NCBI GenBank assembly: GCA_013388545.1
Contig: JACAFB010000045.1
Span: forward strand, 1-64,000
Length of the DNA stretch: 64,000 nucleotides
Reading direction: 5' to 3'
From: Ignavibacteriaceae bacterium
GTDB lineage: Bacteria > Bacteroidota > Ignavibacteria > Ignavibacteriales > Ignavibacteriaceae
Positions within the stretch are counted from its first letter, which is position 1, and the number at the start of each line of letters is the position of its first letter. The position numbers were made by a program, and so were the translations under genes. Shown here in pieces: positions 43,338 through 64,000 of this stretch. The notes under the pieces were generated by a model, which saw only the letters and a list, made by a program, of their open reading frames with translations, was not told the origin of the DNA and did no database searches.

Positions 43338-46238
43338 ATGCAGAGATCAATAAAAATATTATTCACGTGGCTTGTTTTATCCGTAGCAGTTTTTCCTCAG
43401 GTTGTAATTAACCTGCCCGATACTTTGCTGGAGCAGCAGGGGATTCTATTCAGAGTGCCTTTAAACGTCAATAATTTCAATAATATTTCGGCAATAAGTT
43501 TAAAGATAAATTATGATCCTGCTTCAGTTGAGTTTGTAAATATTTATAATCCTGCTGCCGGTGGATTTTTCGTAAATGCCTCTGATGGAGTTATTAAAAT
43601 AGCGTGGGCTTCGCTCCAGAAGTTGAATATTCAAAGCGGGATACTTTTCGAGCTTGAATTCAAGCACTTGCAGGGAAACACGCAGCTTAATTTTATTGAT
43701 GGAGAATGTGAACTCGCAGATTTTTATGGAATGATTTTGAACCTCAGTCTGGGAAACGGCTCTGTTAATATTAATCCGCAAAACCTCTTAGCCTCTATCG
43801 GAAATAAAGTCTGGGTTGACTTAAATAAAAATGGCATTCAGAATTTTGGAGAACCCGGGCTTGCCTGGGTAACTGCTGAATTATATACCTGCACTGGAAA
43901 TTATCTTGGCTTTATTAATACCGATCAGAACGGCATGTACACGTTTGATAATCTGAATCCGGGTGGTTATTACATCCGCTTTACACTGCCCGCTGCTTAC
44001 AATGATTACATTTTTACAAGTAAGAATTCGGGCAACGATCCTGAAAAAGATTCAGACGCTGATCCTCAGACCGGGATGACAGAGTGTTTCACATTAAATG
44101 ATGGTCAAAATGAATTAAGTGTTGATGCGGGTGTTTATCAGCCGCAGGCACTTTATCCGCTTCCTGAAATTAAGGTTTCAGATTACCTTATTTTCAATCC
44201 GCCGCTCAATTCAATAAATACCTATCAGATCGTTTATAAAAATAAAGGCGAATCAGTTTTGCTTAACGCCGCAGTGATTGATACACTTCCACAAGGATTG
44301 ACATTTATTAATTGCAGCGGTGGAATAAACTGCGGTGAAACATCGCCGGGAAGTGGAATAGTAACAGCAGATCTTGGAAATTTAATTCCCTCTGATTCCG
44401 GAATAATATCTGTTACAGTAAAGACTTCCGACATCAAGTCAGATTATAAAAACATTTGCTGGTTAACTGGTAATAATTCAGCGGGTATGACTTTTTCAAG
44501 CATCGATTATGATTTAAATCTTTCGGATAGTTGTACATCTGCCGGTTTAAGTGGAATTGAGTCAAATTCTGATTTTGCAGAAAATATTTTGAAGACACAA
44601 AAGAACTTATTCCCGAATGATTACATTCATTCAATCCAACTTTCAAAGAGATTTAACCAATTTCAGCTTTCGGATTTTATTCCTGCTGAAGGACCTTTTA
44701 ATTCATTCGCAATCGAAACTACTCCTGCTGATATATATTCTGTTTCAAATGCAATAGATTGTTATGCGGTGGATTATTTTCTCAATGATAATGGAACTCT
44801 GCGAAGAGTCGGGGCAATTTTTTCAACAACAACTAATACTCCAGATATTTATGTTCATTCTAAAGCAGTTTGCGACAGATTGAAAGGTTACAAGCTCGAA
44901 GAGATTAATCTTTATAACGTAAACGGCTATGAATTTTTTATTGCTGAACTTAAAAACGAAAATAATCGGTTAACTGATTATTCGGTTTCGTTCAGTGCTT
45001 ATTATAACGGAAATGAATTTAAAGTTCAATCAAAGTGGACTAACGATGAGTATTATTGTCCAACGGATGCAATAATGATTTATAACTTCCAAATCTGGTC
45101 TTCATCTAAGGAAGAGGCAGCAAGTTTGCTGAAAAAAATTCTTGAGAAAATTCAAACTTATGGCAGCATAGTATATTTAAATACAAACCAGAAAGAACCG
45201 GTTGCATTTTTTAGTGAAGGAGCTTATAAACATTCCGGAAATTTTTTACTTCGCGTTAAAAACAAACAGCTTCCCGCTTCATTGCTGTTAAATTATAATT
45301 ACAGATTTTCACAAGGTGGGACAGTTTATGATTCACTGCAGACAATAAATATTTCTGAAGGGGATAATGAGTTTAATATTCCTTTTGGGATAGTTGCTGA
45401 TTCAAAAATCAAATCGGTTCATGCCGGTGGTTTCAAAGATGATTTGTTTCTTAGCGGCGGTACTTATATTCATTATGAAGGCGAAACCAGCCTGGTTGAT
45501 TCATTCCATACAGCCGGTTATCCAAAAATTGATTTGCAGGAGTTTCCTCAAAACTCTCTGGTTTTGTCTGGTGGTGCCAAAATATCCGGTCAGTTGAATG
45601 ATTGGGTTTGCATTTTACGAAGTTTAACCTCCGACGGTTCAGCTTATGATTTGAGCGATTGTTATGCCGTAAGATTTAATATAACAGGCAGCGGCTTAAT
45701 AGATGTCTTTCTTGAAATGACCAATACGCAAAACTACAATTACTATACTCATACCGCAGAAATGAATCCATCCGGAATTGAGATCCAAATTAATTTCAAT
45801 GAGTTTCAGGAAAGATTCGGTCAGCAGACTCCATTCGACGCAAGCCTTATCAATGCAGTCGGATTTATTTATGATAAGGATAAAAATCCTGCGGTTAATA
45901 ATTTCTCGTTTGAAATAAAAAATATTGCATTTCTAAGGGAAATATCTTCAACCGGAAATGAAGAAAAATTGCCCCAAGAGTTTAAACTTTCGCAAAATTA
46001 TCCAAATCCGTTCAACCCGGCTACAAAAATTGATTTCAGCGTGGCAAAAAAAGAAAGAGTTGTGATAAAGATTTTTGATATAATCGGGCAAGAGGTCAGC
46101 GAATTAGTTAACGAAGAACTAAATCCCGGTTATTACTCGGTAACTTTTAATGCAGAAAATCTTTCTAGTGGGATTTATATATACAGTATGATTTCACCAT
46201 CAATAAGTATCTCAAAGAAAATGATACTTTTAAAGTAA
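43338..46238 (+). CDS. T9SS-exported protein with cohesin-like, SdrD-B-like and DUF11-like domains
   Basis: A 966-aa secreted protein. After the signal peptide (about 1-20), residues 22-150 resemble a cohesin domain (ISAISLKINYDPASVEFVNI, SDGVIKIAWAS, LFELEFKHLQG). Residues 154-260 match the SdrD B-type repeat (IGNKVWVDLNKNGIQNFGEPG, TDQNGMYTFDNLNPGGYYIRF). About 270-380 is DUF11-like (YQIVYKNKGESVLLNAAVIDTLPQGL). The middle (400-690) is not recognised. About 700-865 may be a carbohydrate-binding beta-sandwich. The sorting domain lies at 880-966 (NYPNPFNPATKI at 887). Cohesin domains bind dockerins in cellulosomes; no dockerin is visible here, so that role is not shown. Confidence 0.8.
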   Translation: MQRSIKILFTWLVLSVAVFPQVVINLPDTLLEQQGILFRVPLNVNNFNNISAISLKINYDPASVEFVNIYNPAAGGFFVNASDGVIKIAWASLQKLNIQSGILFELEFKHLQGNTQLNFIDGECELADFYGMILNLSLGNGSVNINPQNLLASIGNKVWVDLNKNGIQNFGEPGLAWVTAELYTCTGNYLGFINTDQNGMYTFDNLNPGGYYIRFTLPAAYNDYIFTSKNSGNDPEKDSDADPQTGMTECFTLNDGQNELSVDAGVYQPQALYPLPEIKVSDYLIFNPPLNSINTYQIVYKNKGESVLLNAAVIDTLPQGLTFINCSGGINCGETSPGSGIVTADLGNLIPSDSGIISVTVKTSDIKSDYKNICWLTGNNSAGMTFSSIDYDLNLSDSCTSAGLSGIESNSDFAENILKTQKNLFPNDYIHSIQLSKRFNQFQLSDFIPAEGPFNSFAIETTPADIYSVSNAIDCYAVDYFLNDNGTLRRVGAIFSTTTNTPDIYVHSKAVCDRLKGYKLEEINLYNVNGYEFFIAELKNENNRLTDYSVSFSAYYNGNEFKVQSKWTNDEYYCPTDAIMIYNFQIWSSSKEEAASLLKKILEKIQTYGSIVYLNTNQKEPVAFFSEGAYKHSGNFLLRVKNKQLPASLLLNYNYRFSQGGTVYDSLQTINISEGDNEFNIPFGIVADSKIKSVHAGGFKDDLFLSGGTYIHYEGETSLVDSFHTAGYPKIDLQEFPQNSLVLSGGAKISGQLNDWVCILRSLTSDGSAYDLSDCYAVRFNITGSGLIDVFLEMTNTQNYNYYTHTAEMNPSGIEIQINFNEFQERFGQQTPFDASLINAVGFIYDKDKNPAVNNFSFEIKNIAFLREISSTGNEEKLPQEFKLSQNYPNPFNPATKIDFSVAKKERVVIKIFDIIGQEVSELVNEELNPGYYSVTFNAENLSSGIYIYSMISPSISISKKMILLK

Positions 46239-55718: not shown

Positions 55719-57383
55719 ATGAATCAAATGAATTTTGTGAATAAGACTGTTTTAATTCTTTTCTTCTTAATGATAACTTTTTCAAGCTGTGGTGCGGAAG
55801 ATCCCGGCAGAATTTATATCAGGTGTAACCAGGTGGGTTTTCTACCGAATGATGTAAAAACTGCTGTTGTCTTCTCCCGATTACCAATTAAAGAAAAACA
55901 GTTTTTAATTAAAAGCAATTACAATAACGAAGTTCTATTTAAAGATATTATTTGGGATAGCTTATATACTTACGATAAATTCGAGTATTGTTATAAAATA
56001 GATTTCAGCGAGTTGAATCAACCGGGTTCATACCGGATTGAGATTGACGGCCAGGTTTCTCATTCATTTAATATATCCGCAAATGTATTTAATCACATTG
56101 TTGATTCGTTAATGCTGTTCTTTAAAGTTCAGCGATGCGGGCCAACTGATCCTTTACTTCATAAGGTTTGCCATCTTTATGATGCCAGCAAAGTTCCGGG
56201 AAAAGAAGAGTTGGGTGTGGTCGATTTGACAGGTGGCTGGCATGATGCCGGTGATTATATAAAGTTTTTTTCGACAACTGCTTTTGCAACGTATATGCTT
56301 TTGTTTTCATATGATTTTAACAGAGAAAAGTTTGACTTCGATAATGATTTTAATTCCGTCCCCGATATTCTTGAGGAAGCAAGAGTTGGATTAGATTGGA
56401 TGCTGCGTTGCAATTTTGAGGGTATTAATTTAGTTACTCAGGTTCAGGATTTAAGAGATCACGAGGTTGGCTGGCGCTTGCCCGAAAAAGATAAACTTAT
56501 GTTTGATAGACCCGGGTTGATGAGCATTGGTAAAAATCAAATTGGCATGTTTGCCGCGGTAATGGCATTAGCTTCAAGAATATGGAAAGAAAGATTTTTC
56601 GATAACGAATTCTCAAAAAAACTTTTAAAGGCCGCAGAGAATTTATACTCATTCAGGAATCAGGCTCCCGATATAGATAAGGCTCCAACAGGATTTTACC
56701 AGGATCAATCATTTTTCGGTAAAATTGCCCTGGGTGCAATAGAACTTTACAACTCTACCGGGAACCTGGAGTATCTGAGGGATGCAATCACTTATGGAGA
56801 TAGTGCGAAAGCCGACTATTGGTGGAGCTGGGGAAACATAAATTCTCTTGCACACTACAGAATTTCAAAGTATCAGCCCAGATTTATTGAGTATATTAAA
56901 ATGAATTTATCCGGATTTCAGTTGGCCAGCAGCAAATCAGTTTTTAGTGAAGGTGCAGCATTTACTTGGGGTACAACTAATGCGATTTTGGGCGTTGCTC
57001 TTCAAACAATTTTATATGAAAAACTTACAGGAGATTATTCTTACGATTCATTAAAAACTTTTCAGAGAGATTATATTCTTGGCAGAAATCCCTGGGGCAT
57101 TTCGTTCATTTATAATATTGGAGAGGTTTACCCCAAATACTTTCATCACCAGATAGCGTTTTTTCACAATGGATACTTGCCGGGTGGCCTGGCTGCTGGA
57201 CCTGCACCTGCCTCTCTTCTCGATGATTTTGAAATTGAAAGAGAAAATTTTACTTATAATCTTTTTAATACCGATTCAACTATGTATTTTGACGACCGGA
57301 ATGATTATATCACCAACGAGCCGACTATTGTTGCAAATTCAACGGCTGTTTTTGTATTCGGAAACTATTCCGGAAAAAGATAG
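55719..57383 (+). CDS. Glycoside hydrolase family 9 lipoprotein (cellulase-like)
   Basis: A 554-aa surface or periplasmic lipoprotein, lipidated at Cys24 (TFSSC). An N-terminal Ig-like CelD-type domain (about 30-120, RIYIRCNQVGFLPNDVKTAVVF) precedes the GH9 (alpha/alpha)6 catalytic domain (about 125-545). The nucleophile-activating aspartates lie in GGWHDAGDYIKF (Asp176, Asp179), the conserved middle in GVALQTILYE, GRNPWGISF and YLPGGLAAGPAPA, and the acid Glu534 in DYITNEPTIVANS. GH9 enzymes cut beta-1,4-glucans and related chains, so cellulose, cello-oligosaccharide or chitosan-like substrates are possible. A terminator hairpin lies 12 nt upstream. Confidence 0.92.
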   Translation: MNQMNFVNKTVLILFFLMITFSSCGAEDPGRIYIRCNQVGFLPNDVKTAVVFSRLPIKEKQFLIKSNYNNEVLFKDIIWDSLYTYDKFEYCYKIDFSELNQPGSYRIEIDGQVSHSFNISANVFNHIVDSLMLFFKVQRCGPTDPLLHKVCHLYDASKVPGKEELGVVDLTGGWHDAGDYIKFFSTTAFATYMLLFSYDFNREKFDFDNDFNSVPDILEEARVGLDWMLRCNFEGINLVTQVQDLRDHEVGWRLPEKDKLMFDRPGLMSIGKNQIGMFAAVMALASRIWKERFFDNEFSKKLLKAAENLYSFRNQAPDIDKAPTGFYQDQSFFGKIALGAIELYNSTGNLEYLRDAITYGDSAKADYWWSWGNINSLAHYRISKYQPRFIEYIKMNLSGFQLASSKSVFSEGAAFTWGTTNAILGVALQTILYEKLTGDYSYDSLKTFQRDYILGRNPWGISFIYNIGEVYPKYFHHQIAFFHNGYLPGGLAAGPAPASLLDDFEIERENFTYNLFNTDSTMYFDDRNDYITNEPTIVANSTAVFVFGNYSGKR

Positions 57384-57582: not shown

Positions 57583-58842
57583 ATGAAGAAAAAAATACAA
57601 CTCCTGCCTTCTGGAATTCCATTAATTGATTACGCCTGGGGCGGCATGTATAGAGGTGGAACTTATTTCCTGATTGGTTCAAGAAAGACAGGAAGGACAC
57701 TTCTTTCGCTGCAATTTGCACTGCAAAGCACAAAACAAAATGAGGTTTGTTTATTCTTTACAAACATGCGTCCCAAAGATCTTATGATTCAGGCTGCTGC
57801 TATAGATTTTGATATCGAGCATCAAATGAATCAGAATCGGATTATTGTAATAAGAGTTGCTGCGCCTGTTAATATTGATGAATCTGAATTCCCGGATGAA
57901 GTCCTCAAAGAATATTTTCAGGATATTGTCTCCGTGGTTGAACAGTACAAACCTTCAAAAATGGTATTTGATGAAATAACCCCATTCATTGGGTTCCAGT
58001 CACTTGAGCAGCTTGAAAATTCCTTTTTAGAGATGGTTGAGAAAATTGAAGACGCGGGTGTTACAAGTATGTTTGTTGTGGCTGATCCTGCTACACAACC
58101 TGCGAAGGATGTTCTTAATGTAATGGTTAATAATTCAACAGGTGTGATTTATCTTCAGAAGAAACAGGAAGAAGAAGGAATAGCTTCCGGAGGTTTTATG
58201 ACTATCACGCCTAACATTGGTCATACCGAAGGTCAGTTTAAATCCGGCTATTTCATTGAACCATATAAGGGTGTAGCTGTAGATTTTCAAAAACCCCCTG
58301 AAGAAAAACTTCCTCATTTAATTGAAGAAGAAAAAAATGAACTGGAATTTGAGTTTGAAAAGAAATACATAACCCTGGCTGATATCAAGCTTCCTGAAAA
58401 TAAATTCTATTATTCAAACATCTACCCTGAGGCAGATTTTTATCTTATCGTTAATAACCAGATTGCCTTTTATAAAAGCACTGGTCAGAAATTTACTTTG
58501 ATTTCCATCAAACTTAACCAGCCCGAAGAAGAAGACTTTCTTTCTCTGGATCAGTTGAAGAATGCAGTCAGGCTTTCGGTTGATAAGAAAGACAAGATTT
58601 GCATAATGAAAAACCGGGTGGTTGTTCTTATGACAAGAGATGATAATAAGAGTTTAAGAAGCCTTGTCGCCAGAATTAAAAACAATCTCCCCAATAATGA
58701 TCCCGATTACTTAAAAAAAGTTATCCAATATGTTTCGGTTTATGCGGTGAAAGTAGATGACTCTATCAACAAAGCAGAGGATTTAATTGAGCAATTGCTG
58801 ATTAATGAGTCCAAAGAACAGACAGAATTAGACCACAACTAA
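57583..58842 (+). CDS. KaiC/RadA-like RecA-fold ATPase with C-terminal degenerate GGDEF-like domain
   Basis: A 419-aa soluble protein. Residues 1-235 form one RecA/KaiC-type ATPase domain: LPSGIPLIDYAWGGMYRGGTYFLIG, the P-loop GSRKTGRT (32-39) and the Walker B stretch KMVFDE (126-131). Residues 282-405 follow the secondary-structure course of a GGDEF domain (FYLIVNNQIAFYKSTGQKFTLISIKL ... KDKICIMKNRVVVLMTRDD), but the signature GGDEF position reads KNRVV, so it cannot make c-di-GMP. This second assignment is pattern reading, not proof. No KaiA or KaiB is present, so a clock role is not supported. The gene starts the export-like operon and is 12 nt from the next gene. Confidence 0.7.
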   Translation: MKKKIQLLPSGIPLIDYAWGGMYRGGTYFLIGSRKTGRTLLSLQFALQSTKQNEVCLFFTNMRPKDLMIQAAAIDFDIEHQMNQNRIIVIRVAAPVNIDESEFPDEVLKEYFQDIVSVVEQYKPSKMVFDEITPFIGFQSLEQLENSFLEMVEKIEDAGVTSMFVVADPATQPAKDVLNVMVNNSTGVIYLQKKQEEEGIASGGFMTITPNIGHTEGQFKSGYFIEPYKGVAVDFQKPPEEKLPHLIEEEKNELEFEFEKKYITLADIKLPENKFYYSNIYPEADFYLIVNNQIAFYKSTGQKFTLISIKLNQPEEEDFLSLDQLKNAVRLSVDKKDKICIMKNRVVVLMTRDDNKSLRSLVARIKNNLPNNDPDYLKKVIQYVSVYAVKVDDSINKAEDLIEQLLINESKEQTELDHN

Positions 58843-58854
58843 TACGGTTTTAAG

Positions 58855-61713
58855 ATGAAATACCTGAAGAATATATCATTTGTACTTTCGCTAATAGTTC
58901 TGTTTAGTTGTTTGGGATTATCGCAGAACAAATCAGGTGACCTAAAAAAAGAAGCAATTCAGCAGATGAAATTTGGCCGTTATGGTGAAGCAATTGATTT
59001 ATTAAACCGCTACATTTCAGCAAATCCCCAGGAACCCGAAGGTTACAATCTCCGGGGTTTATGTTATGAAAAAAGAGGCCAATATGAATATGCCGTTTAT
59101 GATTTTAAAAGTGGCTTGAAGTTGGCTCCTAATAATAAAGAAATTTCTGAAAACCTTAGAAGAACTACAGAATCCTGGCAAGCACTTCTTTACAATAAGA
59201 TTGAAGGACACAAAAGGGAAATCGCAATCAATCCAAATAAAGCTGTCAATTACCTGGAAATTGGGAAGAGTTATAAGCATCTTGGCGAGTGGCTTGAGGC
59301 AGAGGATTGGTACGATGAATATTTGAAAAGGGAAGAAGCATCAGCGGATGAAATAATCAGGTATTCTGAAATTCTTGCAAAGAACAACCATATCTCGAAA
59401 GGTGAACCAATATTAAAACGATATTGTGAAAAATATCCTGATGATCAGAGACTTTGGTCGCGCTATGGCTATTTCACTTTGTGGCTTGGCAAAAATAAAA
59501 TTGCAATAGATGCATTTGAAAATGCATTAAGAATAAAGCCTTATTTTAAGGAAGCAATGGATGGACTAGATCTTGCCCGGGGCAAAGGGTATATCTACTC
59601 GGTCAATGACACAACAGCAAGATTTAATTACGGGTTACCCGGCAGCGGCAAGGAATATATTATTGACAAGTATTTTAGAATGCTTAAAAGTAATCCCGGT
59701 GATGATGCAACAAGGTTTTCGCTTGTAAGAGAACTAATGAAAGTGAATCGTTTCGAGGAAGCGCTTGAACAATTAAAAATTTTATCGGTGAGAAATTCAG
59801 AAAACCCGGAATTTAAATCTCTTTGGGATGATTTAAATAATAAAAGGATCGACTATTATTCAGGCAGAATTCAGGAGTTCGAAAAAAAGCTTTCAACATC
59901 TCCCGGAAATCGTGAGGCAATTATGGAGCTTGGGAAATATTATTCATATTCAAATCAGCTTGATCGGTCAACTGATTTGTTTGAAAAGTATTTAAATGAT
60001 CATCCTGAAGATAATGAAGTAAGGTTTCAGCTTGCACTTCACTCAGCCTGGCGGAATGACTACTGCAAGGCAATGAACGAATGTGATTTATTATTAGAGA
60101 AAGATCCTCAAAATAAAAATTATCAGCTGCTGCGTGGTCAACTTGGAGTTTGGTTGAATGATAATCTCGATTACTCTGAACAGCTCCTAAATTCTGTGGT
60201 TTCCAAAGATCCACAAAATCTGCAAGCAATATTGACTTTGGCTTCTTTGAATCTGCAAAAAGAAAATTATACCAGCGCAGCAAATTATCTCAATACAGCC
60301 ACATCAATTAATAATAGCAATCCTGAGCTGATAAATTTACAGCAATCACTTGATGAACTTAAAAAACGAAATGATAGAGATGAACTGTTCGCATTGGTTG
60401 AGAAAGCAAGAAAAAATTTATATGAGAAAAATTGTGATGAAGCAATCGAGATTTTTAATGAATATCTGGCTAATCCTGAATCTGATCAATCTGTTCGCAA
60501 AGAACTGGCAGATGCTTACATCTGTAAAGGTGACTTGAAAAATGGAATGAAGATTTATGATAAACTGCTTCAGGAGAATTATGACTATCAGCTTGATCTT
60601 GAAAAAGCAAAAATTTATTTGTGGCAGAAAGATTCGATAAATGCTTTAAGAGAATTTAAAAGATTAGCATCCAAAAATCCTGATGACTTCGAGACAAGGC
60701 TTTATTTAGGAGATGCTTTTCTGCTTGCTAATCAGTATGATAACGCCCGCGAAGTGTTCACTGAGCTGCTAAAAGTTTCTCCGAATTCGCAGATAGTCAA
60801 AACAAGATTGAACTGGCTTGGCGCTGAAGGTATTAGCGGGATTTCATTTTATACATTCCCGGCTTACCTGCTTGTCTCACCACAAGCTTTCATTTTTGAT
60901 GATAATATTGGATTGAATTACAGCCAAATTGGTTTGCAGCTTGAAGTCGGCATTACAAATTTTCTTTCTTTAGGTGGCTCAGCCTTCAGAGGAAAATTAA
61001 AATCTGATATCGAGAACGACAATTTTACACTTCTTAAAGGAAATGTTATTCTTAAGTTCGCAAAGATTTTTTCTCTTAATGCAGGGTTTGGAAATTCAAC
61101 ATTCTCAAATAGTATAAACAGCAAAATCTCCGAAGTTTCTTTGAAGGCTGAAAAAGAAAAACTTTACAGGATTTCTGCAGGCTTCATTTCTACTGACGCA
61201 GCACAGATGCTTTATTCTCCTTTCCTTGTTAAGAAACGTCTTCAGGCAAACCAATTGTCATTTGTCGGAGAATATAACGCACCTGCCGGAGTTTATTTAT
61301 CTGGTAAATATTTTTACTACACTGTTCCGGATGATAAGGATAATAAAGGAAACTCTTTCGAGTTCAGAGTTGGTAAATCATTTGCCCCGGATTTCAGAGC
61401 CGGATATGAATATTATTTCAACAACTGGGAAATGCAATCAGCTCTTTATTGGTCACCTGCCGGATTTGAATCACATAGTATCTGGTCTGATTGGACAATA
61501 GCCAAAAACAGTGAGGTTAATTTTGTTATTGGTGGAAAAGTTGGTCTGATCCCGAATGAAAATTATGTTCTTCGTGAGTTATATGGCGATATCAGATATG
61601 TTTTTGCAAGGAGTTTTACGGTGTCCGCCCGGTTAACAGGTTCAGGAACTGTTCAGCAAAAAGTTGGCTACAGTTCGCTGGCATTTCAGGTCTCAGCGTT
61701 CTGGAGTCTTTAA
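58855..61713 (+). CDS. TPR protein with C-terminal outer-membrane barrel (BcsC/PelB/YaiO-like)
   Basis: A 952-aa exported protein. Signal peptide about 1-24 (FSCLGLSQ; the Cys could even be a lipobox Cys). Residues 27-650 form an array of TPR units (GEAIDLLNRYISANPQEPEGYNLRG and many similar). From about 660 to 952 it becomes a run of amphipathic strands (VGITNFLSLGGSAF, VGEYNAPAGVYLSGKYFYY) and ends in an aromatic strand FQVSAFWSL. TPR plus barrel is the layout of polysaccharide exporters such as BcsC, PelB and PgaA. It follows the KaiC-like gene by 12 nt and is followed by a GT2 synthase. That it exports a glycan is inference from architecture and neighbours. Confidence 0.8.
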   Translation: MKYLKNISFVLSLIVLFSCLGLSQNKSGDLKKEAIQQMKFGRYGEAIDLLNRYISANPQEPEGYNLRGLCYEKRGQYEYAVYDFKSGLKLAPNNKEISENLRRTTESWQALLYNKIEGHKREIAINPNKAVNYLEIGKSYKHLGEWLEAEDWYDEYLKREEASADEIIRYSEILAKNNHISKGEPILKRYCEKYPDDQRLWSRYGYFTLWLGKNKIAIDAFENALRIKPYFKEAMDGLDLARGKGYIYSVNDTTARFNYGLPGSGKEYIIDKYFRMLKSNPGDDATRFSLVRELMKVNRFEEALEQLKILSVRNSENPEFKSLWDDLNNKRIDYYSGRIQEFEKKLSTSPGNREAIMELGKYYSYSNQLDRSTDLFEKYLNDHPEDNEVRFQLALHSAWRNDYCKAMNECDLLLEKDPQNKNYQLLRGQLGVWLNDNLDYSEQLLNSVVSKDPQNLQAILTLASLNLQKENYTSAANYLNTATSINNSNPELINLQQSLDELKKRNDRDELFALVEKARKNLYEKNCDEAIEIFNEYLANPESDQSVRKELADAYICKGDLKNGMKIYDKLLQENYDYQLDLEKAKIYLWQKDSINALREFKRLASKNPDDFETRLYLGDAFLLANQYDNAREVFTELLKVSPNSQIVKTRLNWLGAEGISGISFYTFPAYLLVSPQAFIFDDNIGLNYSQIGLQLEVGITNFLSLGGSAFRGKLKSDIENDNFTLLKGNVILKFAKIFSLNAGFGNSTFSNSINSKISEVSLKAEKEKLYRISAGFISTDAAQMLYSPFLVKKRLQANQLSFVGEYNAPAGVYLSGKYFYYTVPDDKDNKGNSFEFRVGKSFAPDFRAGYEYYFNNWEMQSALYWSPAGFESHSIWSDWTIAKNSEVNFVIGGKVGLIPNENYVLRELYGDIRYVFARSFTVSARLTGSGTVQQKVGYSSLAFQVSAFWSL

Positions 61714-61886: not shown

Positions 61887-63287
61887 ATGCAGTTAAACCA
61901 AAAAGTACAAAAATCGCACGTAGTGCTAAGAGACATTGAGGAAGACAAAGTCGAGGAAAATTATCAGCGAAAATACCTAAAGCGTATTTTCATAAGCGGA
62001 TTTATTTCACTGATACTGATAGCTATAATACTTTATACTTTACCGCTTACTGTTCTTTCTTTCAGTTCCCTGTTAGAATATTCCACAATTGTAGCACTTG
62101 TTATTTTCCTTTTCATTTTGCTGCTGAGATACTTTGGTATACTCTCTTTCGCATATCTATACATAAATGAATATACTTTCACACCTGAAGATGGATATTT
62201 CCCATTCGTCTCTATAATTGTTCCTGTTTTCAATGAAGAGAAGATGCTGAAGAATTCCATCAATTCGTTGCTTGAAATTGATTATCCAAACTATGAAATA
62301 ATAATTGTTGATGATGGTTCGAAAGATAAGACTAAGGAAGTTGCTGAGTCATTAGTTGGTTTTCAAAAAGGAAAAACGAGCGATGTTAAAGTATCACTGA
62401 TAAGTAAACCCAATGGAGGTAAAGCAAGGGCATTAACTGCAGGTATAAGTTTGTCGCAGGCAGAGTTTGTTTTATGTATGGATGGAGATTCTCAGCTTTC
62501 TCCTGATTCGCTTAAAATGGCTGTACGTCACTTTAAGAATCCTGAAATCGGCGCAGTTGCCGGAAACGTAAAAGTTTTAAACAGAGGCAGATTTCTTACA
62601 GATCTTCAGGCTCTTGAGTATATAGAAGGTTTGAATATGGCCCGCGCTGCTCAGAGTTTTATGAGGCTGGTAAATATTATTCCCGGGCCCATTGGTCTTT
62701 TCAGGAAAAAGGCAATCGAACAAGTAGGATACTATTCAAGTGACACTTACGCTGAAGATGCTGATTTAACATTGAAAATCCTGGCCAAAGGCTGGAAGAT
62801 TTATTACGAACCACGGTCAATTTCATACACAGAAGCACCCGCAAAGCTTCAGCAATTATTAAAACAGCGTTACAGATGGACACGCGGGATTATTCAGTCT
62901 ATACGTAAACATAAAAAGCTGATGATAAATCCAACCATCAACTTTGGTGATACATTTATTCTTTGGTCAATGTTTTACGAAGCATTAATCTGGCCGGCGA
63001 TGAACATTGCAGCAAACGCTTTTTTCATTTTTGCGGCGCTGGTTTTTGGATTCAGCCAGTTGATTTTTTTCTGGTGGGCAGGTTTAGCATTGCTTGATCT
63101 TACTACAGCCCTTTATTGTATTGCTGTTGAAAAGGAAGAATTCCGTCTGGTTGTTTATGCAATCATTTACCGAATGTTCTTTATTCTCCTGATTGATATT
63201 TGTAAAGCAATGTCTACAATTGAAGAATTTCTCGGGATAAGAATGACCTGGGGAAAGTTAGAGAGATTAGGCACAGCAAAAGTTTAA
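61887..63287 (+). CDS. Membrane family 2 glycosyltransferase (processive polysaccharide synthase type)
   Basis: A 466-aa inner-membrane enzyme with two N-terminal helices (about 34-55 and 66-92) and three or four C-terminal helices (from about 353). The GT-A catalytic set of processive synthases is complete: VDDGSKDKT (141-149), MDGDSQL (198-204), TYAEDADL (287-294) and the Q-x-x-R-W signature in KQRYRW (326-331). This set is shared by PgaC/IcaA (poly-GlcNAc), NodC, hyaluronan and cellulose synthases; the length and N-terminal helices favour a PgaC-like enzyme, but no PilZ domain is seen. Sugar unknown. Confidence 0.88.
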   Translation: MQLNQKVQKSHVVLRDIEEDKVEENYQRKYLKRIFISGFISLILIAIILYTLPLTVLSFSSLLEYSTIVALVIFLFILLLRYFGILSFAYLYINEYTFTPEDGYFPFVSIIVPVFNEEKMLKNSINSLLEIDYPNYEIIIVDDGSKDKTKEVAESLVGFQKGKTSDVKVSLISKPNGGKARALTAGISLSQAEFVLCMDGDSQLSPDSLKMAVRHFKNPEIGAVAGNVKVLNRGRFLTDLQALEYIEGLNMARAAQSFMRLVNIIPGPIGLFRKKAIEQVGYYSSDTYAEDADLTLKILAKGWKIYYEPRSISYTEAPAKLQQLLKQRYRWTRGIIQSIRKHKKLMINPTINFGDTFILWSMFYEALIWPAMNIAANAFFIFAALVFGFSQLIFFWWAGLALLDLTTALYCIAVEKEEFRLVVYAIIYRMFFILLIDICKAMSTIEEFLGIRMTWGKLERLGTAKV

Positions 63288-63312: not shown

Positions 63313-63696
63313 ATGGAACTAATTCCAATTTTATCTACAATCATACTTGTTGCAACAATAAGCACTTTTATTCTTGCAATAGGTGCTTATGTTCTGTACA
63401 AAGTGCGTGAGAGAAGAGGCACTCAACAAACTGTACAAACACAAACTACGGTTCAGGCAGAAGTTTTATCACCAATCACTGCACCGGTGCAGCAGCCTGT
63501 TTATGTTGAACCGAGGAAAGGTCAGCAGCCTATGCAGTCTGTACACACTCCTAAACCAAAAGAGTATCCGGGCCCTGAGCAGCAGCAGGCTCCGGAGCAA
63601 AGAGTCTCTTCAGATGGAAAAATATTGCGATATACTTCTGAAGGTTATGTTTCAACTAAAGAAGATAAACGCGGCGGAGAAATAAAGTGGCGGTAG
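63313..63696 (+). CDS. Small single-helix membrane protein with Pro/Gln-rich tail
   Basis: A 127-aa protein I do not recognise. It has one N-terminal transmembrane helix (about 5-30, ILSTIILVATISTFILAIGAYVLY), a basic cluster (KVRERR), a Gln/Pro/Val-rich linker (about 36-98) and a polar C-terminus (SSDGKILRYTSEGYVSTKED). An AGAGG sequence precedes the ATG. It lies 25 nt after the GT2 gene and overlaps the next gene by 10 nt, so it belongs to the same operon and is likely an accessory or scaffold protein of the synthase. Confidence 0.65.
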   Translation: MELIPILSTIILVATISTFILAIGAYVLYKVRERRGTQQTVQTQTTVQAEVLSPITAPVQQPVYVEPRKGQQPMQSVHTPKPKEYPGPEQQQAPEQRVSSDGKILRYTSEGYVSTKEDKRGGEIKWR

Positions 63697-64000
63697 ATCC
63701 GAAGCCAAAAGGAAGAATAAATCAATTACTGATTGTTGTTACCGGTTCGGTAATTCTTATCGGGGCGGTACTCATTTACTTTTTAATCCTGAGGGGTGTT
63801 TACGGCAGAATTGATGAAAACACCTTTATGCCCGATTCAAAAATACTTAAAGACTTTTTTCTTGGCGGAAAACCAAAGATTGCAATCTTATATTCAAAGT
63901 ATACGGAGAATATGCTGCCTGAAGGCAGTACCTGGTTGAATGACAACATTACCACCTGGGAAAAATTTCTTGGAAATCTCAAATATGAGTTTGATATAAT
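63687..64000 (+). CDS. Membrane-anchored protein, cut by the window end
   Basis: The frame opens at GTG 63687 (overlapping the previous stop) and is still open at the window end: 104 codons seen. It has a basic cytoplasmic start, one transmembrane helix (about 14-38, LLIVVTGSVILIGAVLIYFLIL) and the beginning of a periplasmic domain (KPKIAILYSKYTENMLPEG ... NITTWEKFLGNLKYEFDII) that looks like a Rossmann-type or ThuA-like start. Its position after the synthase suggests a polymer-modifying or anchoring function, such as a deacetylase, but the visible part cannot show that. Confidence 0.6.
   Translation, partial: MAVDPKPKGRINQLLIVVTGSVILIGAVLIYFLILRGVYGRIDENTFMPDSKILKDFFLGGKPKIAILYSKYTENMLPEGSTWLNDNITTWEKFLGNLKYEFDI

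Follow-up and report, generated by a model that had tools for sequence, protein, structure and literature searches.

A degenerate KaiC-type protein with a predicted GGDEF-fold module in an exopolysaccharide-type locus of Ignavibacteriales

Gene order and domain layout

The window is a 64,000-nucleotide stretch of DNA from an Ignavibacteriaceae genome. It carries an open reading frame encoding a 419-amino acid (aa) protein (Table 1) that is present in a single copy in this genome. The whole-protein model (pLDDT 85.9, pTM 0.59) predicts a RecA-like domain extending to approximately residue 236, then a disordered linker and a compact C-terminal module. Because the whole-protein pTM is 0.59, the placement of the two halves relative to one another is uncertain.

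The gene stands first in the order KaiC-GGDEF protein, tetratricopeptide repeat (TPR) protein, PgaC-like glycosyltransferase family 2 (GT2) synthase, small membrane protein and deacetylase-like protein, and the TPR gene begins 12 bp after it. This locus looks like an exopolysaccharide-type (sugar-polymer export) operon: a GT2, a TPR export protein and a modifying enzyme, the components by which synthase-dependent exopolysaccharide operons are recognized, are all encoded, although the outer-membrane barrel is inferred and the deacetylase match is weak. The deacetylase-like protein (p632, 632 aa) matches PF01522 with an E value of 5.6e-5 and 23.5 bits (cut-off 23.1), while PF09822 falls below its cut-off. 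A QRYRW motif is visible in the GT2, and we take it to support the synthase label. Neighbour counts in Table 1 refer to loci with enough flank in a set of 38 genomes (described below). At two of these loci (L038 and L039, from G028 and G030), the glycoside hydrolase family 9 (GH9) gene, the gene for the protein and the TPR gene are kept and the GT2 gene is absent from the stretch examined; at a third (L036, from G013), the GH9, TPR and GT2 genes are all absent from the stretch examined.

Table 1. Positions in the window of the gene, its domains and motifs, and its neighbours
Feature	Position	Strand	Evidence or conservation
GH9 glycoside hydrolase, upstream neighbour	55719..57383	+	PF00759 269.6 bits; adjacent in 32/35 loci with flank
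Whole gene, degenerate KaiC-linker-degenerate GGDEF protein, 419 aa	57583..58842	+	full-length in 38/41 genomes
KaiC/RecA-like domain, residues 1-236	57583..58290	+	PF06745; VIA-align Z 27.1 to KaiC 7s65
P-loop GSRKTGRT, residues 32-39, Walker lysine replaced by R38	57676..57699	+	position 38: R67 K13 of 80
M62-R63 at KaiC catalytic-glutamate position	57766..57771	+	M70, R80 of 80
Walker B F129-D130-E131, intact	57967..57975	+	80/80 at each position
Variable linker, mostly disordered	58291..58416	+	residues 242-276 pLDDT <50
Degenerate GGDEF-fold module, residues 279-409 (about 280-409 in model)	58417..58809	+	predicted structure
NNQIAFYKSTGQ, residues 291-302, highest conservation within module	58453..58488	+	alignments
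KKDK, residues 335-338, in place of I-site (RxxD would be 334-337)	58585..58596	+	80-sequence alignment
KNRVV, residues 343-347, at GGDEF signature site	58609..58623	+	80-sequence alignment
TPR protein, putative C-terminal outer-membrane barrel, PgaA/BcsC-like layout	58855..61713	+	adjacent in 36/37
GT2 synthase, PgaC-like	61887..63287	+	PF00535; TIGR03937 209 bits (cut-off 422.3); downstream in 26/29
s127, proposed BcsF-like anchor with a single membrane helix, a variable linker and a conserved C-terminal tail	63313..63696	+	downstream in 26/29
p632 start, deacetylase-like, runs beyond window end	63687..64000	+	downstream in 25/29

Two degenerate halves

Both halves of the chain are degenerate. 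By profile, the N-terminal half is a KaiC domain: PF06745 scores 80.9 bits (cut-off 26.6) over residues 9-198, nothing else exceeds its Pfam cut-off, and the NCBIfam models that match, of KaiC and RecA type, all score below theirs. The fold agrees with this, with a VIA-align Z of 23.8 to FlaH (4yds) in addition to the KaiC match in Table 1. Within the P-loop, K35 and G37 are invariant in 80/80 aligned sequences. The Walker A lysine and catalytic glutamates of the KaiC family are not intact, however: position 38 is mostly arginine, and M62-R63 occupies what we take to be the site of the KaiC catalytic glutamate pair. KaiC and ArlH-type RecA ATPases thus share the fold of this domain and differ in that it occurs here as a single domain fused to a degenerate GGDEF module, with P-loop lysine and catalytic glutamates replaced, in a different operon context. 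A main role as a circadian or signalling KaiC was considered and rejected because of the single domain, the degenerate motifs and the polysaccharide-type operon.

The C-terminal module runs through helix 283-300, strand 305-311, helix 322-332, strands 338-342 and 345-350, helix 355-367, strand 384-390 and helix 398-406 in the whole-protein model. Helix alpha-1, which is expected after the first strand of the GGDEF course, is missing from the predicted module. Folded alone, the module gives a pLDDT of 83.8 and a pTM of 0.76. A Foldseek search with this model returned a best E value of 3.3e-5, and all 29 matches at E<=0.001 were GGDEF-bearing, as were 47 of the 50 matches listed (the other three being eIF2). 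VIA-align gave a best Z of 13.0 (6khu, rmsd 3.5, 129 residues aligned), with GGDEF-bearing entries throughout the top 50 listed, and a Z of 11.9 over 122 residues to PelD (4dmz); BcsE chains were absent among the VIA-align matches listed for either half. The predicted model therefore contains the GGDEF core, and the sequence-only reading of a degenerate GGDEF-like C-terminus on a KaiC-family protein is confirmed by PF06745 for the N-terminal half and by Foldseek and VIA-align for the module.

Profile searches at the sequence level do not recover this relationship. PF00990 (GGDEF) is not listed for the 419-aa protein at E<=1 in the Pfam search, Pfam and NCBIfam name no family over its C-terminal part (NCBIfam gives one chance-level row there, E 0.12), and hhalign shows no relation of the module to GGDEF (probability <=2.1%). 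The assignment consequently depends on the fold and on the RxxD motif found in relatives (described below).

Conservation within the module was assessed in an alignment (A2) of 80 sequences, comprising the window and 79 of 80 loci; the one omitted, L138, is truncated at a contig end. Alignment A3 lacks L120, and A4 includes 35 of 37 candidates, without L095 and the 37th. The strongest conserved stretch is NNQIAxYKSTGQ, followed by KKDKIC. The pentapeptide KNRVV had been proposed to occupy the GGDEF signature site; its location holds, at the turn between the central strands, but strict conservation does not, as the 80 sequences vary at position 344 (N58/D16), 345 (K62/R3) and 346 (V42/I35). The signature site mostly reads [x][ND]K[VI], without GG[DE]EF. 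The absence of an RxxD inhibitory site at its expected place, also noted previously, extends to all 80 sequences (0/80 with RxxD). Instead, this position reads x[KR][KR]DK in all but two sequences, of which one carries I and the other E (335: K66 R13 I1; 336: K76 R4; 337: D79 E1; 338: K80). The aspartate of the I-site, D337, is kept in 79/80, and D or S mostly stands in place of the arginine; the register follows a profile alignment with the second class described below, which places RxxD on these residues. Elsewhere in the module, RxxD occurs in 7/80 sequences.

Distribution and the small membrane protein

In the genome set, made up of the window's own genome and 40 relatives, 38 of the 41 genomes have the full-length protein, which argues against a chance arrangement and bears out the expectation that homologues would share the module. 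G001 and G023 have no match to the protein, and G017 has distant KaiC matches alone (21-23% identity). Scanning the contigs of named genomes with the alignment produced 119 relatives, of which 80 loci were kept, titled Ignavibacteria, Ignavibacteriales, Melioribacter, Bacteroidetes and similar; the same scan with the single protein as the query gave no match, nor did a search of viral contigs with the N-terminal 200 aa. Operon counts use the 38-genome set because the 80 named loci overlap the 38 genome loci (L078 and L034, for example, are the same contig). No paper on the protein or operon was found in open-licence PubMed Central. KaiC-only paralogues of approximately 250-360 aa, without the GGDEF module, adjoin the gene just upstream at six loci (L034, with two copies, L048, L094, L096, L098 and L106), which suggests mixed assemblies.

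In the small membrane protein s127 (127 aa), the membrane helix is almost invariant, the linker varies and the end is conserved as KFxxYTxEGYV ... WR; no family exceeds its cut-off over it in Pfam or NCBIfam. Its distribution follows that of the 419-aa protein in the 41 genomes: both are present in 37, neither in 3, and one genome is a mismatch (Fisher p 3.8e-4, uncorrected for kinship). s127 is missing from G001, G017 and G023, which also lack the full-length protein, and from G004, a 76% complete assembly that has it. In G013 and at L095, an s127-like gene directly follows the gene for the protein, the TPR and GT2 genes having gone from that spot; these two loci look alike and may reflect one event. 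In two genomes of the f3 family (G028 and G030), s127 lies on another contig.

Relatives were also found in a second class of the phylum. Of 296 genomes sampled phylum-wide, 39 have matches at E<=1e-20, including 12 outside the order; a sample of 146 genomes from the class of G160 gave 26 with matches at E<=1e-10, among them the same 12. Profile-profile comparison places the module at the end of ten second-class proteins (probability 96%, E 4.3e-9), and a profile built on those ten detects it in 23/26. The exopolysaccharide-type gene order recurs: among 11 second-class loci read, seven have the order protein-TPR-GT2 (two of these from one genus), two are cut by contig ends and two lack it. The s127 versions in this class end with the related EYTDxGFVPV, whereas relatives of p632 have no deacetylase match. 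The P-loop lysine is lost in 26/26 second-class proteins, and the following Ser/Thr in most.

Of 21 relatives in this class, 14 carry RxxD at the I-site. These 21 were drawn from the 26 by leaving out L231, L248 and L249 (no in-frame C-terminal module) and L225 and L226 (near copies of L224). PF00990 is found in 5/26 second-class genomes, and in 3 of the 14 RxxD carriers versus none of the 7 relatives without RxxD, numbers too small to carry meaning. PilZ is absent from all 12 second-class genomes searched.

Cyclic dinucleotides, known systems and interpretation

PF00990 genes occur once per genome in the 41 genomes, with one extra in G010. The common gene encodes a TM-GAF-GAF protein with a degenerate GGDEF domain, in which GG[DE]EF is absent in 41/41. 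This protein has a PelD-like layout (G000:C71:91061-91522; L150, L156), and in the window's own genome its gene is flanked by genes for a GTPase and a Metalloenzyme-superfamily protein. hhalign detected no relation between it and the 419-aa protein (probability <=1.3%); in a control comparison with one canonical GGDEF, the TM-GAF-GAF protein scored 95.6%. PilZ is found in none of the 41 genomes and EAL in one, G010. A high-scoring GGDEF and EAL lie side by side in G010 (G010:C10:4458-5690), the sole such pair in the 41 genomes; as this assembly has 8% contamination, the pair is possibly foreign sequence. The PF00990, EAL and PilZ searches gave matches in control genomes such as E. coli. With PilZ absent and intact GGDEF and EAL confined to one doubtful assembly, c-di-GMP is an unlikely ligand of the protein in the related genomes. 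According to a 2005 census, diguanylate cyclases were absent in four Bacteroidetes (PMC1183210). The sequence-only reading had cautioned that any nucleotide would be bound differently from standard receptors. This was well judged and can be strengthened: c-di-GMP binding is unlikely, beyond merely unusual, because the I-site has lost its arginine, alpha-1 is absent, and neither intact c-di-GMP enzymes nor PilZ were found in the related genomes (with the one doubtful exception).

A c-di-AMP cyclase is present in 20/21 genomes. A second c-di-AMP cyclase gene occurs in three f3-family genomes (L221 10580-12025; G028:C7:134811; G032:C91:2415); it encodes CdaA_N-DAC-YbbR in G030 and lies approximately 10 kb from the locus in two of the three. 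The cyclase near the locus (G028 and G030) was not counted as an operon member because it lies beyond a transporter, two TPR genes and a kinase, as read in G030.

Among known systems, the closest analogue is BcsE, the c-di-GMP-binding subunit of E. coli cellulose synthesis. Both proteins combine an N-terminal degenerate RecA/KaiC-like NTPase with a C-terminal degenerate GGDEF domain lacking alpha-1, and both are encoded with a GT2 synthase system and a small membrane protein nearby. BcsE differs in having a degenerate REC domain between its NTPase and GGDEF domains, where the 419-aa protein has a disordered linker, and in having a c-di-GMP-binding RxxD, which the 419-aa protein lacks. The present protein is found in genomes without recognized c-di-GMP machinery, beside a PgaC-like synthase with no PilZ match. 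An hhalign comparison with a single BcsE sequence, a weak query, gave a probability <=0.3%. The conserved tail of s127 would resemble BcsF in role: in BcsF, a short peptide of the membrane, the cytosolic tail contributes a strand to the sheet of the BcsE NTPase domain (PMC11470070).

PelD of Pseudomonas aeruginosa (TM-GAF-degenerate GGDEF) also carries a degenerate GGDEF domain in an exopolysaccharide operon, and the structural match to 4dmz was given above; the 419-aa protein has a KaiC domain instead of membrane helices and a GAF match, and no RxxD. Loss of helix alpha-1 in PelD and BcsE has been reported (PMC7439463). The Pga (PNAG) system, pgaABCD, shares a GT2 nearest to TIGR03937 (PgaC/IcaA), a TPR protein weakly matching TIGR03939 (PgaA) and a deacetylase-like protein, but all of these matches are below equivalog cut-offs here and Pga contains no KaiC-GGDEF protein; in Pga, c-di-GMP acts at PgaC-PgaD (PMC8461298). 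Since the protein lacks the degenerate REC domain and RxxD of BcsE and the GAF domain and membrane helices of PelD, it is filed in no named receptor family.

Our preferred reading, which we hold with moderate confidence by analogy, is that the protein may act in the cytosol, without enzymatic activity, as part of a synthase-dependent exopolysaccharide export machine, working like BcsE; its GGDEF-fold domain has probably been kept for a structural role in that machine. The KaiC half would self-assemble and dock on the cytosolic tail of s127, as the BcsE NTPase domain does on BcsF, and the GGDEF half would be a protein-contact module holding or gating the GT2 synthase. In Ignavibacteriales, this half would no longer sense c-di-GMP, the former I-site having perhaps turned into a fixed basic patch for protein contact. 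Several observations weigh against such a BcsE-like scaffold. No BcsE sequence relation was detected and the REC domain is absent; the invariant K35 and intact Walker B leave room for nucleotide binding by the KaiC half in Ignavibacteriales; and 11 of the 14 second-class RxxD carriers have genomes lacking PF00990, a pattern that simple loss of the ligand would not predict.

The fixed form of the I-site position, which shows no free drift, could also be explained if KKDKIC and NNQIAxYKSTGQ allowed the module to sense a small molecule, such as c-di-AMP, a different nucleotide or a nucleotide sugar, and to signal to the synthase; the near-universal c-di-AMP cyclase fits this. We regard such a switch of ligand as rather unlikely, as no c-di-AMP receptor of GGDEF fold appears among the structural matches or papers examined, and a fixed basic patch would serve protein contact equally well. 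Somewhat less credence goes to the proposal that the KaiC half functions as a nucleotide switch, using ATP via K35 or R38 to drive assembly of the complex. Nucleotide binding by this half is possible in Ignavibacteriales, given the invariant K35 and intact Walker B, and G37, D130 and E131 are invariant in the 80 sequences as well; against a switch are the arginine at the Walker lysine in 67/80, the replacement of the glutamate pair by M-R and the more advanced P-loop loss in the second class.

It is very unlikely that the protein is still a c-di-GMP receptor with a non-canonical site, supplied by an enzyme that the searches missed. Its closest analogues, BcsE and PelD, do bind c-di-GMP (PMC7439463, PMC8461298), and RxxD is in the right place in two thirds of the second-class relatives (14/21), but the complete absence of this motif from the 80 aligned sequences, together with the lack of PilZ and of any intact GGDEF outside the extra G010 gene in searches whose controls were positive, speaks strongly against it. 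Least probable of all, and to our minds barely tenable, is a module that only looks like GGDEF and is of other descent: the failure of every sequence method to link the two and the three eIF2 rows in Foldseek would suit this, whereas the GGDEF-bearing entries that fill the VIA-align list and nearly all of the Foldseek list, and the RxxD of second-class relatives at the expected place, would not.

Synthase-dependent exopolysaccharides are usually presented as being under c-di-GMP control. If the protein does work like BcsE, the locus suggests that another phylum has the BcsE plan of an inactive NTPase and an inactive GGDEF next to a synthase, and retains it where c-di-GMP enzymes are missing. 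The structural role of the GGDEF fold would then be separable from its messenger. A broader scenario is offered tentatively and as a doubtful one: an export-machine family kept a c-di-GMP receptor fold after its lineage lost c-di-GMP, the I-site in Ignavibacteriales being rebuilt as a fixed [KR][KR]DK that either responds to a different signal or holds the synthase in place, while a peptide tail like that of BcsF would bring an inactive KaiC assembly to the membrane. Compared with what had been read from the sequence, the analysis adds the exopolysaccharide-type synthase operon, the degeneracy of the KaiC half and the parallel to BcsE. It also names a candidate partner, the small membrane protein with the conserved tail, and provides a hypothesis of function for proteins that family libraries see as KaiC alone.

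A 966-aa protein encoded elsewhere in the window (43338-46238) matches cohesin and SdrD_B and carries a Por secretion tail; we presume it to be a type IX-secreted surface protein.
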